Assembly (NCBI RefSeq): GCF_900113085.1
Contig: NZ_FOOC01000002.1
Coordinates: 124,001 to 188,000 of the forward strand
DNA: 64,000 nucleotides
Direction: 5' to 3'
Origin: Fontimonas thermophila
GTDB lineage: Bacteria; Pseudomonadota; Gammaproteobacteria; Nevskiales; Nevskiaceae
Part shown: positions 1,666 through 10,024 of the stretch, piece by piece
Layout of the letters: each line of letters begins with the position of its first letter
Position numbering within the stretch: the stretch's first letter is position 1
Program-made: the position numbers and the translations under genes
Notes under the pieces: generated by a model
What the model was told of the DNA's origin: nothing
What the model saw: only the letters and a program-made list of their open reading frames with translations
The model's database searches: none

Positions 1666-2034
1666 TTAGCTGATGTGCTTGCTGACCAGCTTGGTCAGCT
1701 CAAACATGTTGACGAACGGCTTGCCACCGAAGAGCTTCTTGAGCTTTTCATCGGCGTTGATCTGGCGCTTGTTGGTTTTATCCTGCAGGCCGTTCTTCTT
1801 GATGTAATCCCACAGGCTCTTGGTGATTTGCCCACGCGGTTGCGGTTTGGTACCGACGATCTCGGCCAGGACGGGGCTCGGCGTCATCGGTGCCATCAGC
1901 GCCGGGTTGGGCTTGCGCTTGGCTTTCGTGGCGGCTTTCTTCACCGCCTTCTTTGCGGCTTTCTTCACTGTCTTTTTCGCGGGCGCTTTCTTCGCGGCTT
2001 TTTTCGCAGCAGGTTTCTTCTTGGCCTTGGCCAT
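1666..2034 (-). CDS. SWIB/MDM2-domain protein with histone H1-like Lys/Ala-rich N-terminus
   Basis: The 122-residue protein has two parts. Residues 1-42 are almost only Lys, Ala, Pro and Thr in repeats such as KKAAKKAPAKK, like the tail of histone H1. Residues about 45-120 form a SWIB domain, with the typical ITKSLWDYIKKNGLQD and the closing GGKPFVNMFELTKLVSKH. SWIB domains in eukaryotes occur in chromatin remodellers; in bacteria the role is unknown, though nucleoid association or topoisomerase interaction is proposed for chlamydial versions. The basic tail suggests DNA or RNA binding. GGGAG about 9 bases upstream of the ATG serves as RBS. The gene is monocistronic, with a hairpin just downstream. 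Confidence 0.85.
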   Translation of the reverse strand: MAKAKKKPAAKKAAKKAPAKKTVKKAAKKAVKKAATKAKRKPNPALMAPMTPSPVLAEIVGTKPQPRGQITKSLWDYIKKNGLQDKTNKRQINADEKLKKLFGGKPFVNMFELTKLVSKHIS

Positions 2035-5624: not shown

Positions 5625-6995
5625 ATGAGTCCGACCGTCGCCAAGTTGCAGGCATCGCCCAAGTTGCCGCCGTACTCGCTGGAAGCCGAGCGTGCGGTGC
5701 TCGGCGGGCTGATGCTGGACAATCGGCCCTGGAACGATCTGGCCGACCGTCTTTCGCCGGAAGATTTTTACAGCGAGGCGCACCAGATCATTTACCGGGC
5801 GATTTGCGATCTGGTGGGCAGTAACCGGCCCTGCGACTTCATCACGCTGTCGGAGTACATGAAGGCGCAGGGTCAGCTCGAGGCCGCCGGTGGCATTGCC
5901 TATCTGGGTGAACTCGCCAACGATGCCTTGAGTGCCGCCAATGTGCTGGCCTATGGCGAAATCGTGCGCGAACGGGCAGTGTTGCGCGGGCTCATCGCGG
6001 CGGGCGGGGATATTGCCGAACTTGGCTTTCGTCCCGAGGGACGCAGCCATGCCGAGCTGATCGATATTGCCGAGCAAAAGGTATTTGCGCTGCGTTCGCG
6101 CGCCGAGCATGCGCGCTCGAGCTATTACGCGATGCCGCAGCTCATGGATCAGCTCGAGCATAAGATCGATTTCTTGCGGCAGCATCGAGGCAGACTCGCC
6201 GGGCTTGCGACGGGGTTTGCAGACTTCGATGCCAAGACCACGGGCCTGCACCCGGGGGATCTGGTGATCGTGGCCGGGCGGCCGTCGATGGGCAAGACCT
6301 CGTTTGCTCTCAACATCGCCGAGCACGTCGTGCTCTACGAGAAAAAACCAGCGGCAGTGTTCAGCATGGAGATGCCGGCGGAGCAGCTGGCCCTGCGCAT
6401 GGTCGCGTCGTTCGCGCGTATTCCGATGGGCAAGCTGCGCACCGGTGAGCTCGAAGACCGCGACTGGGATCGTCTGATATCGCAGGGCACGTTGATCCGC
6501 GAGGCGCCGCTGTATATCGACGAAACCGGGGCGTTGTCGCCGCTGGAGCTGCGCGCGCGCGCGCGGCGGATCAAGGCGCGCCATGGTTTGAGTTTGATCA
6601 TCGTCGATTACATCCAGTTGATGCAGGTGCCGGGAACGCGTGAGAACCGTACCAACGAGATTTCCGAGATCTCGCGCAGCCTCAAGGCGTTGGCCAAGGA
6701 GCTGGAGGTGCCGGTGATCGCGCTGTCGCAGCTCAATCGCGGTGTCGAACAGCGTGACAACAAGCGGCCGCGCATGGCCGACCTGCGCGAGTCTGGTGGT
6801 ATCGAGCAGGATGCCGATCTCGTCGTTTTCATTTACCGCGACGAGGTCTATAACAAGGATTCGCCGGACAAGGGTACGGCCGAAATCATCATCGCCAAGC
6901 AGCGCAACGGTCCGCTGGGCACCGTCAAGACGGCTTTTCTCGGCGAGTACACCCGCTTCGAGAATCTCGCGCAGGGGTACGCGGACTACGCATGA
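5625..6995 (+). CDS. dnaB: Replicative DNA helicase DnaB
   Basis: This 456-residue hexameric helicase unwinds DNA at the replication fork and binds primase. The N-terminal domain begins PPYSLEAERAVLGGLM (about residue 15). The RecA-like domain has Walker A GRPSMGKTSFAL (about 217-228), the Walker B region SLIIVDYIQLM, and the ELEVPVIALSQLNRGVE motif. The ATG at 5625 was chosen because the additional upstream frame does not resemble DnaB. No intein interrupts the P-loop or the downstream motif, both common insertion sites. It overlaps alr by 4 bp (ATGA), so the two are translationally coupled. Confidence 0.97.
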   Translation: MSPTVAKLQASPKLPPYSLEAERAVLGGLMLDNRPWNDLADRLSPEDFYSEAHQIIYRAICDLVGSNRPCDFITLSEYMKAQGQLEAAGGIAYLGELANDALSAANVLAYGEIVRERAVLRGLIAAGGDIAELGFRPEGRSHAELIDIAEQKVFALRSRAEHARSSYYAMPQLMDQLEHKIDFLRQHRGRLAGLATGFADFDAKTTGLHPGDLVIVAGRPSMGKTSFALNIAEHVVLYEKKPAAVFSMEMPAEQLALRMVASFARIPMGKLRTGELEDRDWDRLISQGTLIREAPLYIDETGALSPLELRARARRIKARHGLSLIIVDYIQLMQVPGTRENRTNEISEISRSLKALAKELEVPVIALSQLNRGVEQRDNKRPRMADLRESGGIEQDADLVVFIYRDEVYNKDSPDKGTAEIIIAKQRNGPLGTVKTAFLGEYTRFENLAQGYADYA

Positions 6996-8089
6996 TCCCG
7001 CGTGTCACCGCGACGGTCGATCTGGCAGCGTTGCGCCACAACCTGGGTGTGGTGCGCCGACTTGCGCCGCGTTCGCGGGTGATGGCCGCCGTCAAGGCCG
7101 ATGCGTATGGTCATGGCGCGGTCCCTGTCGCACGCACGCTGGAAGCGGCGGGCGTCGATGCGCTGGCCGTGGCCTGCCTGGAAGAAGCGATGCAATTGCG
7201 TCAGGCGCGCGTGCAGGCACCGATCGCACTGCTCGAAGGGGTGATCTCCAGCGAGGAGGCGGCCCAGGCCGTTTACGAGCGGTTGCAGATCGTTGTCCAT
7301 GATCACTGGCAGATCGCGCTGCTCGAACAATTGCCGGCCAGCGCGCGGCTGTCGGTATGGTTCAAGCTCGATAGTGGCATGCACCGTCTCGGTTTTCCGT
7401 TGACCGAGGTTCCCCGCCTGGTGGAGACCTTGCGTCGCCATCCCGGCTGGTCGTTCCAGGGGTGGATGACGCATCTGGCCTGCGCGGATGAGCCGGACAA
7501 TCCGTTTACCGATGAGCAGATCGCTCGTTTCGAGGCGGCGCTGGCCGGCATACCCGGACCGCGTTCGATCGCCAACTCCGCCGGACTGATCGCCTGGCCA
7601 CGGGCGCGTACCGATTGGGTGCGGCCGGGCTTGGCGCTTTACGGTTGCTCGCCGATGCCCGGTAGCACCGGAGCAGAACTGGGCCTAAAGCCGGCGATGC
7701 GGCTGGAAAGCCGCATCATCGCTGTACGCGAGTACGCCTCCGGCGAGGGCATCGGGTATGGCTTGACCTATCGCTGTCCGGAGCGGATGCGAATCGGTGT
7801 CGTCGCCATTGGCTATGCGGACGGCATGCACCGCGCCTTTCGTAACGGAACGCCCGTGCTCATCCGCGGCCGGCGGGCATACCTAGCCGGCCGCGTATCG
7901 ATGGACATGATCACCGTGGATCTGCGCGAAGTGCCGGATGCCTGCGTCGGGGATCCGGTGCTGCTGTGGGGCGATGCGCTGCCCGCCGAGGAGATCGCCC
8001 AATGGGCGGGCACGCTATCCTATGAGCTTTTCTGCGGACTGACGCAGCGCGTGCATTTCCGTCATCTCGACGCCGCCGGTGCCAGGTAG
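6992..8089 (+). CDS. alr: Alanine racemase
   Basis: This 365-residue, PLP-dependent enzyme interconverts L- and D-alanine for peptidoglycan. The PLP lysine is K35 in AAVKADAYGHG, and the catalytic tyrosine lies in GEGIGYGLTY. The C-terminal beta domain carries SMDMITVDL. The start overlaps the dnaB stop by 4 bp, an arrangement shared by many gammaproteobacteria. A terminator overlaps the last codons. Confidence 0.96.
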   Translation: MIPRVTATVDLAALRHNLGVVRRLAPRSRVMAAVKADAYGHGAVPVARTLEAAGVDALAVACLEEAMQLRQARVQAPIALLEGVISSEEAAQAVYERLQIVVHDHWQIALLEQLPASARLSVWFKLDSGMHRLGFPLTEVPRLVETLRRHPGWSFQGWMTHLACADEPDNPFTDEQIARFEAALAGIPGPRSIANSAGLIAWPRARTDWVRPGLALYGCSPMPGSTGAELGLKPAMRLESRIIAVREYASGEGIGYGLTYRCPERMRIGVVAIGYADGMHRAFRNGTPVLIRGRRAYLAGRVSMDMITVDLREVPDACVGDPVLLWGDALPAEEIAQWAGTLSYELFCGLTQRVHFRHLDAAGAR

Positions 8090-8101
8090 GGCGGCGTTTT
8101 T
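8071..8101 (+). terminator. alr: Intrinsic terminator overlapping the end of alr
   Basis: CGCCGCC (8071-8077) pairs perfectly with GGCGGCG (8090-8096) around a 12-base loop that contains the alr stop region, and TTTTT follows. It ends the rpsF-to-alr transcription unit. Confidence 0.7.
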
Positions 8102-8149
8102 CTGCGGATCACGGCCTTGGCTTCTGGTGCGCCAGCCAGCGCAGCCGTC

Positions 8150-8440
8150 TCAGCGGATCAACGGGGAGAGTTTGCGCAGCGCCTCGGCCGTGGTCGTTGC
8201 GCCGGTGCGGTCGAGATCCTCGCGCGTATAGACCTGTCCCGGTGCAGCCACGCACGGGTCAGTGGCGGTTCGCGGGATGCGGCTGCCGGTTTCTAGGAGG
8301 CAGTTGGACGGCCGATCGGCGGCCCGGGTCAGCACGGGTGTCGAGGTTTCCGGAATCGCCTGTGCGGCGTTGGGCGGACGCGGCGTGGAGGCGCAGGAAG
8401 CCAAGAGGGCGACGGCGGCGCTCATCAGCAGTCTGTTCAT
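8150..8440 (-). CDS. Small lipoprotein resembling a TonB-receptor plug fragment
   Basis: The protein has 96 residues. The N-terminus is a lipoprotein signal with lipobox LASC (Cys16). The mature part contains TGSRIPR (about 51-57), flanked by Cys47 and Cys63, and then VYTREDLDRTGATTTAEALR (about 70-89). Both elements closely resemble the start of the plug domain of TonB-dependent receptors, but no barrel follows and the protein ends eight residues later. It is the last gene of the kinase-PP2C-FHA run, 55 bp after the FHA gene. Its function is not known; it could be a periplasmic ligand or decoy for envelope signalling. The lipoprotein call is strong, the functional idea is inference. Confidence 0.75.
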   Translation of the reverse strand: MNRLLMSAAVALLASCASTPRPPNAAQAIPETSTPVLTRAADRPSNCLLETGSRIPRTATDPCVAAPGQVYTREDLDRTGATTTAEALRKLSPLIR

Positions 8441-8495
8441 CGGGATCCTCCAGCGAAAGAGTGGGCGTCAATGGCGCAGCGCGCAGGGGCGCACC

Positions 8496-9200
8496 TTACG
8501 GCTGCAGAATGAAGACCATTTTCGTGCCGACGAGTTCGACCGTGTCGTTGTGATTGAGTTTGCGCGCCTGTACGTCGATAGGCTGGCCGTTGACCAGGGG
8601 TCTTTGACCGCCGCCGTCGCCACCGACGTGGACGATGTAGTAGCCATCGGCGCGGCGCGTGATCGCGGCCACCTGTACGCCGGGTTTTCCGATGGTCGTC
8701 AAGGCTTTGGACAGTTCCAATTCCTTGCCGGCGTTGGCGCCGCTGGTGACGCGCAGCTTGCCCAGCGGCGGTCGCCCCGGCGCGGCCGCCGGATTCGCTG
8801 CCGGTGCGCTGCCCACCGCCGGCGCGGCAGCCTTGTTGACCTGGGCGTCGAAAGCCGCACCGAACTGGCCTGGCTTGAGGATCATCGTTTTCTCGAAATC
8901 GTCGTCGGCCCCCTTCTCGCCCTCGAACTTCAGGGTATTACGGCCGATCGTGATGACATCGCCATGCGTCAGCGGATGCTTGGCGATCGGCTTGCCGTTG
9001 ACCTGGGTGCCGTTGGTCGAATCCAGATCCTCGAGAAAAGAATCCTGGAGGATGGTGATGACCACGGCATGGTGACCGGACACGGCTTTGTCATTGAGGC
9101 AGATGTCGTTGTCCGGGTGGCGCCCGATGGTCACGCGCTCCTTGTCGAGCACGTACTCCTGGCTGCGGCCGCTGCTGTCGGTGACGATGAGCTTGCCCAT
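8496..9200 (-). CDS. Dual FHA-domain phosphothreonine-binding protein
   Basis: The 234-residue cytoplasmic protein starts at MGKLIVTD; an ATG 12 bp further upstream, overlapping the previous gene, is possible. The first FHA domain (about 1-95) has the full binding set: GRHPDND (26-32), SGHH (41-44) and STNGT (61-65). An Ala/Pro-rich linker (about 97-145) carries EKTMIL with Thr105, a likely phosphosite. A second, degenerate FHA-like domain (about 146-230, GKLRVTSGANAGKEL to the end) lacks the clear Arg/Ser/Asn set. FHA domains bind phosphothreonine, so this is the probable effector of the kinase two genes upstream. The gap to the PP2C stop is 2 bp, which indicates tight coupling. Confidence 0.85.
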   Translation of the reverse strand: MGKLIVTDSSGRSQEYVLDKERVTIGRHPDNDICLNDKAVSGHHAVVITILQDSFLEDLDSTNGTQVNGKPIAKHPLTHGDVITIGRNTLKFEGEKGADDDFEKTMILKPGQFGAAFDAQVNKAAAPAVGSAPAANPAAAPGRPPLGKLRVTSGANAGKELELSKALTTIGKPGVQVAAITRRADGYYIVHVGGDGGGQRPLVNGQPIDVQARKLNHNDTVELVGTKMVFILQP

Positions 9201-9202
9201 GT

Positions 9203-10024
9203 TCAGAACCATTCCATCAGACGTTCATACCAGCGCCGTCCTCGTGCGAACGAGGCGTTCACACGGGCCAGCGCGACCGAGATATTGTCCTTGCCGCCGT
9301 TTTCGTTTGCGAGGCCCACCAGTTCTCTGGCCAGCCGATCAAGATTATCAGCGTGTCTGGAGAGCGTTAAGCCGATCGCATCATCGGAAACCATGTCGGT
9401 GAGCCCGTCCGAGCATAGGAGCAGGATGTCTCCCGGCTCGACGGTTTCCTCGATCACGTCGACCAAGACCTCCGGTTCGACGCCGAGCGCGCGTGTCACG
9501 ATGTTTTTGCGCACGAGCTTGCTGGCATCCTCGCGGTTGTAGTGGCCGCGGGCCACCAGTTCCTCGATCAGCGAGTGGTCACGCGTGATCTGTTCGAGGC
9601 GGCCTTTGCGGAAGCGGTACAGCCGTGAATCACCGACATAGGCCACGGAAACGCGATCGTCATGAAGCAGGCAGGCGACGATCGTCGTGCCCATGCCGGC
9701 GCACTGCGGCTGACTCTGCGCGACGGCGTAGATGGTGCGGTGCGCGTCCTCGACCGCTGCTTTGAGCATCAACGACTCGACGCTGTAGCCGCTTGCACCG
9801 TCGATCTCGCCATGCTTGAGCGTCGGCCAGCGGCGGCGTGCGACGTCGAGCACCGTGGTCACCGATATGCCGCTTGCGATCTCACCGGCGTTGTAGCCGC
9901 CCATGCCGTCGGCGAGCACGAGCAGGCCGATATCGGGATCTTCGCCGACGGCGTCCTCGTTGTTCTGGCGCATGCGTCCGGTATCGGACAGCAGCGCGGT
10001 GGATACTTTGCCTTTCAGGGCCAT
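9203..10024 (-). CDS. PP2C-family Ser/Thr protein phosphatase
   Basis: This 273-residue, metal-dependent phosphatase is of the Stp/PrpC type. Motifs in order are SDTGRMRQNNEDAVG (about 14-28), VLADGMGGYNAGE with metal-binding Asp and the GMGG loop, SVAYVGDSRLYRFR, LLCSDGLTDMV with a metal Asp, and GGKDNISVALARV near the end. It is expected to reverse phosphorylation by the CHASE2 kinase encoded 6 bp upstream in the same operon. No signal or membrane segment is visible, so it acts in the cytoplasm, where the kinase domain also lies. Confidence 0.92.
   Translation of the reverse strand: MALKGKVSTALLSDTGRMRQNNEDAVGEDPDIGLLVLADGMGGYNAGEIASGISVTTVLDVARRRWPTLKHGEIDGASGYSVESLMLKAAVEDAHRTIYAVAQSQPQCAGMGTTIVACLLHDDRVSVAYVGDSRLYRFRKGRLEQITRDHSLIEELVARGHYNREDASKLVRKNIVTRALGVEPEVLVDVIEETVEPGDILLLCSDGLTDMVSDDAIGLTLSRHADNLDRLARELVGLANENGGKDNISVALARVNASFARGRRWYERLMEWF

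Follow-up and report, generated by a model that had tools for sequence, protein, structure and literature searches.

A run of kinase, PP2C and FHA genes in Fontimonas thermophila ends in a small gene whose product resembles the start of a TonB-receptor plug, and the locus raises the question of what a free piece of such a plug could be. In the window (the whole stretch of 64,000 nucleotides analyzed) the 96-residue ORF, whose translation begins MNRLLMSAAVALLASC, is as the earlier note described it: the lipobox LASC occupies residues 13–16, TGSRIPR is flanked by C47 and C63, and the helix-turn-helix stretch VYTREDLDRTGATTTAEALR covers residues 70–89, after which seven residues remain. We refer to this protein as the mini-plug and to the 50 residues from C47 to R96 as its core. 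Its position at the end of the run was likewise confirmed, with the gene starting 55 nt downstream of the FHA gene, which is itself preceded by CHASE2-kinase and PP2C genes (Pfam). The mini-plug gene is likely co-transcribed with the FHA gene. An exact consensus scan of positions 8060–8700 returned no promoter- or terminator-like sites, a scan in which shuffled sequences are also expected to give practically none. Elsewhere in the window, the protein encoded at 1666–2034 (-) has a Lys/Ala-rich tail followed by what looks like a SWIB-type domain.

Table 1 Features of the mini-plug locus, in positions of the window
Feature	Positions	Strand	Description and basis
Mini-plug gene	8150..8440	(-)	96 aa; half-plug homologue that is exported and, in Fontimonas thermophila, predicted to be a lipoprotein
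GGAGG ribosome-binding site	8447..8451	(-)	6 nt before ATG, read from sequence
Signal peptide (residues 1–15) and lipobox Cys16 (LASC)	8393..8440	(-)	Predicted from sequence
Variable linker, residues 17–46	8303..8392	(-)	Signal-plus-linker dN/dS 0.33–0.76; low model confidence
Conserved core, residues 47–96	8153..8302	(-)	Core dN/dS 0.00–0.33 in seven close pairs
TGSRI, residues 51–55	8276..8290	(-)	Register matches BtuB T11-A12-N13-R14, where the Ton box ends
VYTREDLDRTGATTTAEALRKLSP, residues 70–93	8162..8233	(-)	In register with about BtuB 28–51 (plug strand 2, helices 1–2)
FHA-domain gene, just upstream	8496..9212	(-)	Pfam; neighbor, not a conserved partner
Alanine racemase gene (alr), convergent neighbor	6992..8089	(+)	Pfam; junction exists with and without the mini-plug

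Relatives of the mini-plug were found in the same genus and family by whole-genome searches; a first scan of genome contigs with the single window protein had returned none. Using A2, a profile of 15 mini-plug cores from which outlying members were left out, small-ORF members, counted as matches with an E-value of at most 1e-3 in frames of <600 aa, were identified in 34 of the 58 genomes of the family. This count omits two contig-end receptor fragments (G433:C160 and G437:C199) and includes one genome, G446, in whose copy the core is out of frame with the signal peptide. The latter copy (L151, G446:C66, about 5870–6115) is either a broken gene or an assembly error. Among 85 genomes of the window's order, small-frame matches also occurred in three genomes of another family (G038, G045 and G048), and the matches listed for the other outside-family genomes lay in frames of 658–1040 aa. 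In the order of Lysobacteraceae bacterium NML08-0793, 103 of 398 genomes had a strong small-ORF match, with E-values no higher than 6e-9 and frames no longer than 493 aa (<300 aa in 96 cases); the weaker matches listed there (E 1.3e-7 and worse) lay in frames of 841–1149 aa, with one 112-aa exception. No small-ORF member besides the window's own appeared among the matches listed for even draws of 369 genomes of the class and 398 of the phylum. Mini-plug absences are weak evidence throughout, because in many genomes only part of the first-look candidates was scored. Named relatives come from Nevskia, Luteimonas, Arenimonas, Frateuria, Rehaibacterium terrae and Lysobacteraceae bacterium NML08-0793. 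The mini-plug is thus conserved outside this genome and is a gene family, not a lone remnant. The window genome itself (G000) is 2.73 Mb in size and 99.6% complete; nine of ten listed congeners have 4.1–4.7 Mb and one has 3.2 Mb, and Fontimonas thermophila may be streamlined compared with the rest of its genus.

Searches of Pfam, NCBIfam and PHROGs gave the mini-plug no family match that passed the cut-off or had a meaningful E-value; the PHROGs matches were weak and confined to the N-terminal 37 residues. The Pfam Plug family (PF07715) matched the window protein at E 0.084 and 13.8 bits (gathering cut-off 23.9), pairing residues 67–91 with Plug positions 8–32 of ~107; the protein ends five residues later, and Pfam detected no barrel family in the 96-aa ORF. 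Relatives behaved similarly: the best Plug score among ten of them was 17.6 bits, also below the cut-off, and four of the ten gave no Plug match at E 1. In single scans of 26 members, 13 nonetheless matched Plug (best E 0.0036), and no other Pfam family was hit by two or more of them. The best match of L039 was to DUF7155, which ranked above Plug; it too stayed below its cut-off (E 3e-4) and lay mostly over the signal and linker. NCBIfam BtuB models matched the window protein weakly (E 0.07–0.3). The best single Plug match among the ten relatives scanned (E 0.0056) belonged to L049, which lacks TGSRI and forms a sub-family with L046 and L048 (L046:7818–8126 (-), with an AICARFT/IMPCHase gene beside it; L049:8083–8388 (+)). 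In L046 and L049 one Cys is instead located after the helices, a different possible staple.

The resemblance is far clearer at the profile level. The A2 profile matched receptor-sized ORFs in the class-wide genomes with E-values down to 1.5e-8, the best receptor match spanning model positions 5–50, and all 19 listed class-wide matches besides the window's own were frames of 673–1007 aa. Of the 39 A2 matches in the family that were not counted as mini-plugs, at least 19 coincided with PF07715 matches. Alignment of A2 with 13 plugs of the same genome by hhalign gave a probability of 91.8%, P 7.3e-7 and a score of 36.4, pairing A2 positions 7–51 with plug columns 12–54. These plugs had been found by Pfam independently of the mini-plug profile, and represent 13 of 14 Pfam matches (L063 was omitted and the short fragment L064 was included). 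The reversed alignment scored 10.4, and none of 200 column shuffles reached 36.4 (maximum 15.3). In the reverse search, a model of the 13 plugs placed 13 of 58 mini-plug entries (nine distinct proteins) above the HMMER inclusion line, with a best E-value of 2.4e-4 for 1000 sequences. Likeness to the plug at the profile level therefore exceeds chance, which upholds the earlier observation of a start-of-plug pattern; the PF07715 relation stands in a single register for the family profile, while the individual proteins scored stay below the 23.9-bit cut-off.

The register could be carried over to BtuB. By a two-step alignment through a local BtuB-like plug, TGSR (residues 51–54) corresponds to BtuB T11–R14 and residues 70–93 to about BtuB 28–51, so that the core as a whole corresponds to about BtuB 7–51. 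Structural comparison was less informative: the only receptor returned by a PDB sequence search was CntO (E 1.9), which ranked behind an unrelated aminotransferase (E 0.79), and Foldseek found no match in the PDB for the whole-protein or the core model. The AF2 models had pTM values of 0.36 (whole) and 0.47 (core), with high confidence only around the helices at 73–78 and 84–91, which fall where the plug has helices 1 and 2. Taken together, we conclude that the mini-plug very probably descends from a TonB-receptor plug.

The strand that TonB would grip has been altered. Val, the residue directly preceding TG (T-1) in 12 of 13 receptors, occurs there in only one of 37 distinct mini-plug cores, whereas 32 of the 37 carry Cys four residues before TG (T-4). 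The receptors were chosen by a motif pattern that leaves T-1 unconstrained, and the 37 cores omit five entries (four distinct proteins) without TG. Since mini-plugs rarely have Val at T-1 and mostly have Cys at T-4, the Ton box is gone and a Cys-containing polar motif stands in its place. The second Cys follows a loop of variable length. C47, T51, G52, C63, G68 and G80 are invariant in alignment A7, which consists of 26 chosen members; omitted outliers such as L046, L049 and L160 break this pattern. Two Cys from the first core position onward were present in 52 of 58 rows, a count with motif-picked core starts that skips four entries (three distinct proteins) without the search motif. In the modest-confidence AF2 model, residues 47–48 and 64–65 adopt a strand or bridge state. 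The conserved Cys pair probably forms a disulfide.

Rates of substitution further distinguish the core from the rest of the protein. In seven close pairs, which overlap partly in their members, core dN/dS was 0.00, 0.03, 0.02, 0.27, 0.33, 0.25 and 0.23, and signal-plus-linker dN/dS in the same pairs was 0.50, 0.74, 0.73, 0.41, 0.51, 0.33 and 0.76; the core value was the lower one in all seven. Divergence is greater in pairs with the window protein (core dS ≥0.79, saturated in one case), for which core dN/dS, where it could be computed, was 0.15–0.54. The mini-plug core is under purifying selection that is stronger than in the linker, and the gene is almost certainly live.

Lipid anchoring, the other trait highlighted at the outset, is not conserved across the family. 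Lipoboxes follow the motif [LVI][ASTVI][GAS]C at the end of the signal peptide, and the window protein carries a matching LASC at residues 13–16. A lipobox-like motif, with G also allowed at the second position, was found in only 6 of 58 distinct N-termini; therefore, the predicted anchor holds for this protein and is a local feature, not a trait that defines the family.

Gene neighborhoods vary between clades. Genes in the compared loci were picked as ORFs by codon-position GC and include antisense errors. What recurs is a lone mini-plug gene, often at a convergent junction. The order kinase-PP2C-FHA-mini-plug is repeated in seven other genomes. Among 21 loci with an alr match near FHA, the mini-plug is present in eight (seven from the alr-FHA locus search plus L141, known from other searches) and missing in 13; the alr and FHA alignments end only ~31–131 bp from each other in five of the loci that lack it. 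In Nevskia-type genomes the mini-plug has ApaG next to it, together with DsbA-cytochrome or flavin-oxidoreductase genes; in Frateuria-type genomes it is flanked by RNA methyltransferase and class-III aminotransferase genes, and in Luteimonas-type genomes it adjoins or lies near urocanase; AICARFT/IMPCHase and ferritin-like genes are neighbors elsewhere. Placement just upstream of or near urocanase is seen in L175–L178 and other loci from several genera (Pfam assignment in L176).

A receptor-type gene adjoins the mini-plug in 3 of 35 loci. In L161 and L162 it follows ~0.2–0.4 kb behind the mini-plug, and in L148 it is convergent at ~0.4 kb; Pfam confirmed both plug and barrel in L162 only. The mini-plugs concerned lie at L161:8935–9288 (-), L162:5627–5944 (-) and L148:5912–6505 (-), and L161 and L162 share a common cluster, in which Pfam identified a 2OG-Fe(II) oxygenase (in L161) and a TPR-sulfotransferase (in L162). 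These receptor-linked copies would be the best place to test function. Across genomes, the number of TonB receptors did not differ significantly between those with and without a mini-plug (median 23.5 vs. 18, p 0.24). Because receptors occur in all 58 family genomes, presence of the mini-plug cannot test a receptor link. The window genome has 14 plug matches, compared with 11–51 in congeners.

Several explanations can be weighed against these observations. Convergence of two short motifs, in place of descent from a plug, would agree with scored members falling under the Pfam cut-off and with the lack of a structural match in the PDB. The match is nevertheless co-linear over model positions ~5–50 and recurs at the same place in many receptor-sized ORFs, and with no shuffle attaining the real hhalign score we regard convergence as improbable. 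The earlier note had also suggested a periplasmic signal partner such as the adjacent CHASE2 kinase, for which one could cite the 55-nt spacing behind kinase-PP2C-FHA, the same order in seven other genomes and the lack of promoter-like sites at 8060–8700 in a scan that expects about none. This partnership did not survive the co-occurrence count: with an FHA orthologue defined as a match at E 1e-30 or better, 18 of the 58 genomes have both genes, 16 only the mini-plug, 16 only FHA and 8 neither (Fisher p 0.42). Where FHA has an alr match nearby (21 loci), the mini-plug is missing in 13, and in most genomes other genes, ranging from ApaG, aminotransferase and RNA-methyltransferase to urocanase, AICARFT/IMPCHase and ferritin-like genes, are its neighbors. 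Based on co-occurrence and neighborhood comparison we rejected the kinase partnership, which is very improbable. Least credible is the notion, likewise raised before, of a decaying fragment of a lost receptor that is kept by chance. The mini-plug is short and matches only the start of a receptor, signal peptide and core are out of frame with each other in the L151 copy, and the gene is missing from some FHA-alr junctions, all of which a remnant might display. Yet the remnant reading is contradicted by selection on the core (dN/dS 0.00–0.33 in seven close pairs), by retention of the Cys pair in 52 of 58 rows and by its occurrence in 34 of the 58 family genomes and in 103 of the 398 from the order of the Lysobacteraceae bacterium; it was rejected on the dN/dS values.

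The remaining choice concerns function. A plug-derived protein may by now do something unrelated to TonB receptors, its helix-turn-helix reused in a small adaptor or envelope protein of the periplasm that is held by a disulfide. The absence of a conserved neighbor, receptor numbers that do not differ significantly, the lost Ton box and the C-terminal motif L(D/S)PS(I/V), in which many members end instead of LPG, all point this way. What speaks against it is that the plug-like pattern still matches receptor-sized ORFs in one register, down to E 1.5e-8. We consider such a change of role a serious possibility, and rank it level with the mini plug that binds a barrel, which the earlier note had envisaged and which we place first.

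For the barrel-binding mini plug, the following mechanism can be sketched. The mini-plug would consist of the degenerated Ton-box strand, loop, strand 2 and helices 1–2 of a receptor plug, with a periplasmic disulfide pinning the strand where TonB would pull. The product would be a stapled mimic of the force-labile plug half that TonB could not grip and that would be hard to unravel by force. It might dock in trans on surfaces that normally receive the labile half, i.e., the barrel lumen, the resistant half of the plug or an assembling receptor, and its simplest use would be to stand in for the labile half where that has moved out or is not yet in place. TonB-dependent receptors would thereby be sealed, blocked or chaperoned, and the lipid anchor predicted in Fontimonas thermophila would only raise the local concentration at the membrane. 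Several observations weigh against docking on receptors: receptor numbers do not differ significantly with the gene, a receptor-type neighbor is seen at only 3 of 35 loci, neither AF2 model has a PDB match, and the FepA plug behaved as unfolded when isolated (PMC11658791). Action of the mini-plug on TonB receptors is a serious possibility, and we put forward tentatively a plug-derived, probably disulfide-stapled periplasmic half-plug that may dock on them in trans. The fuller version, in which Nevskiales and Xanthomonadales possess a disulfide-locked copy of the plug half that transport pulls out, acting in trans as a surrogate plug that fits emptied or assembling receptors and controls outer-membrane permeability or receptor activity, appears unlikely as a whole.

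If true, a surrogate plug would constitute a new regulatory layer for TonB-dependent transport, and a mini-plug that docks on receptors would give the cell an inhibitor or sealing factor of its own for nutrient uptake. A natural, conserved and exported half-plug with a Cys pair would be a ready-made reagent for studying how the force-labile plug half behaves outside its barrel. Even without docking, the mini-plugs represent a small-protein family that has no model in the libraries searched. Titles and abstract openings retrieved in a literature search described no isolated, standalone or truncated plug protein family, and as far as these go the free exported use of a piece of the known plug fold appears to be a new variant.

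Comparison with known systems delimits what is shared and what differs. With the N-terminal half of PF07715 the mini-plug has in common the TGSRI strand, the loop, the V-x-T-R-E-D-L strand and helix 1, the G-A-T turn and helix 2 (AEALRxL), in equal order and register. It differs in ending after helix 2, without the second plug half, barrel or Ton box, in its two conserved Cys, and in being a free exported protein. Many mini-plugs moreover close with L(D/S)PS(I/V), a motif peculiar to them, where the plug has LPG, in a comparison in which one relative starts one codon early.

As a precedent for a separately exported plug and barrel, Braun et al. in 2003 reportedly made the FhuA cork separately from its barrel. 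A paper that names this work notes that FhuA cork and barrel, when made separately, were studied for insertion (PMC2615193). The separate FhuA cork is an engineered whole plug, whereas the mini-plug is a natural half-plug. For BtuB, PMC5413942 reports a mechanically weak N-terminal half of the plug (residues 23–73), which unfolds and opens a channel when TonB pulls on the Ton box (peptide 5–14). The mini-plug core, at about BtuB 7–51, takes in the Ton-box strand and reaches into the beginning of this force-labile subdomain; unlike the latter, it is a separate polypeptide, likely disulfide-stapled, and lacks the equivalent of BtuB 52–73. Conserved Cys in the plug domain are also reported for the CQNC-type TonB receptors of Stenotrophomonas (PMC13217887), a feature common to the mini-plug and receptors of related bacteria. 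The CQNC-type proteins are full receptors with a Cys-x-x-Cys in the central plug and a proposed role in Mn binding, whereas the mini-plug is free.
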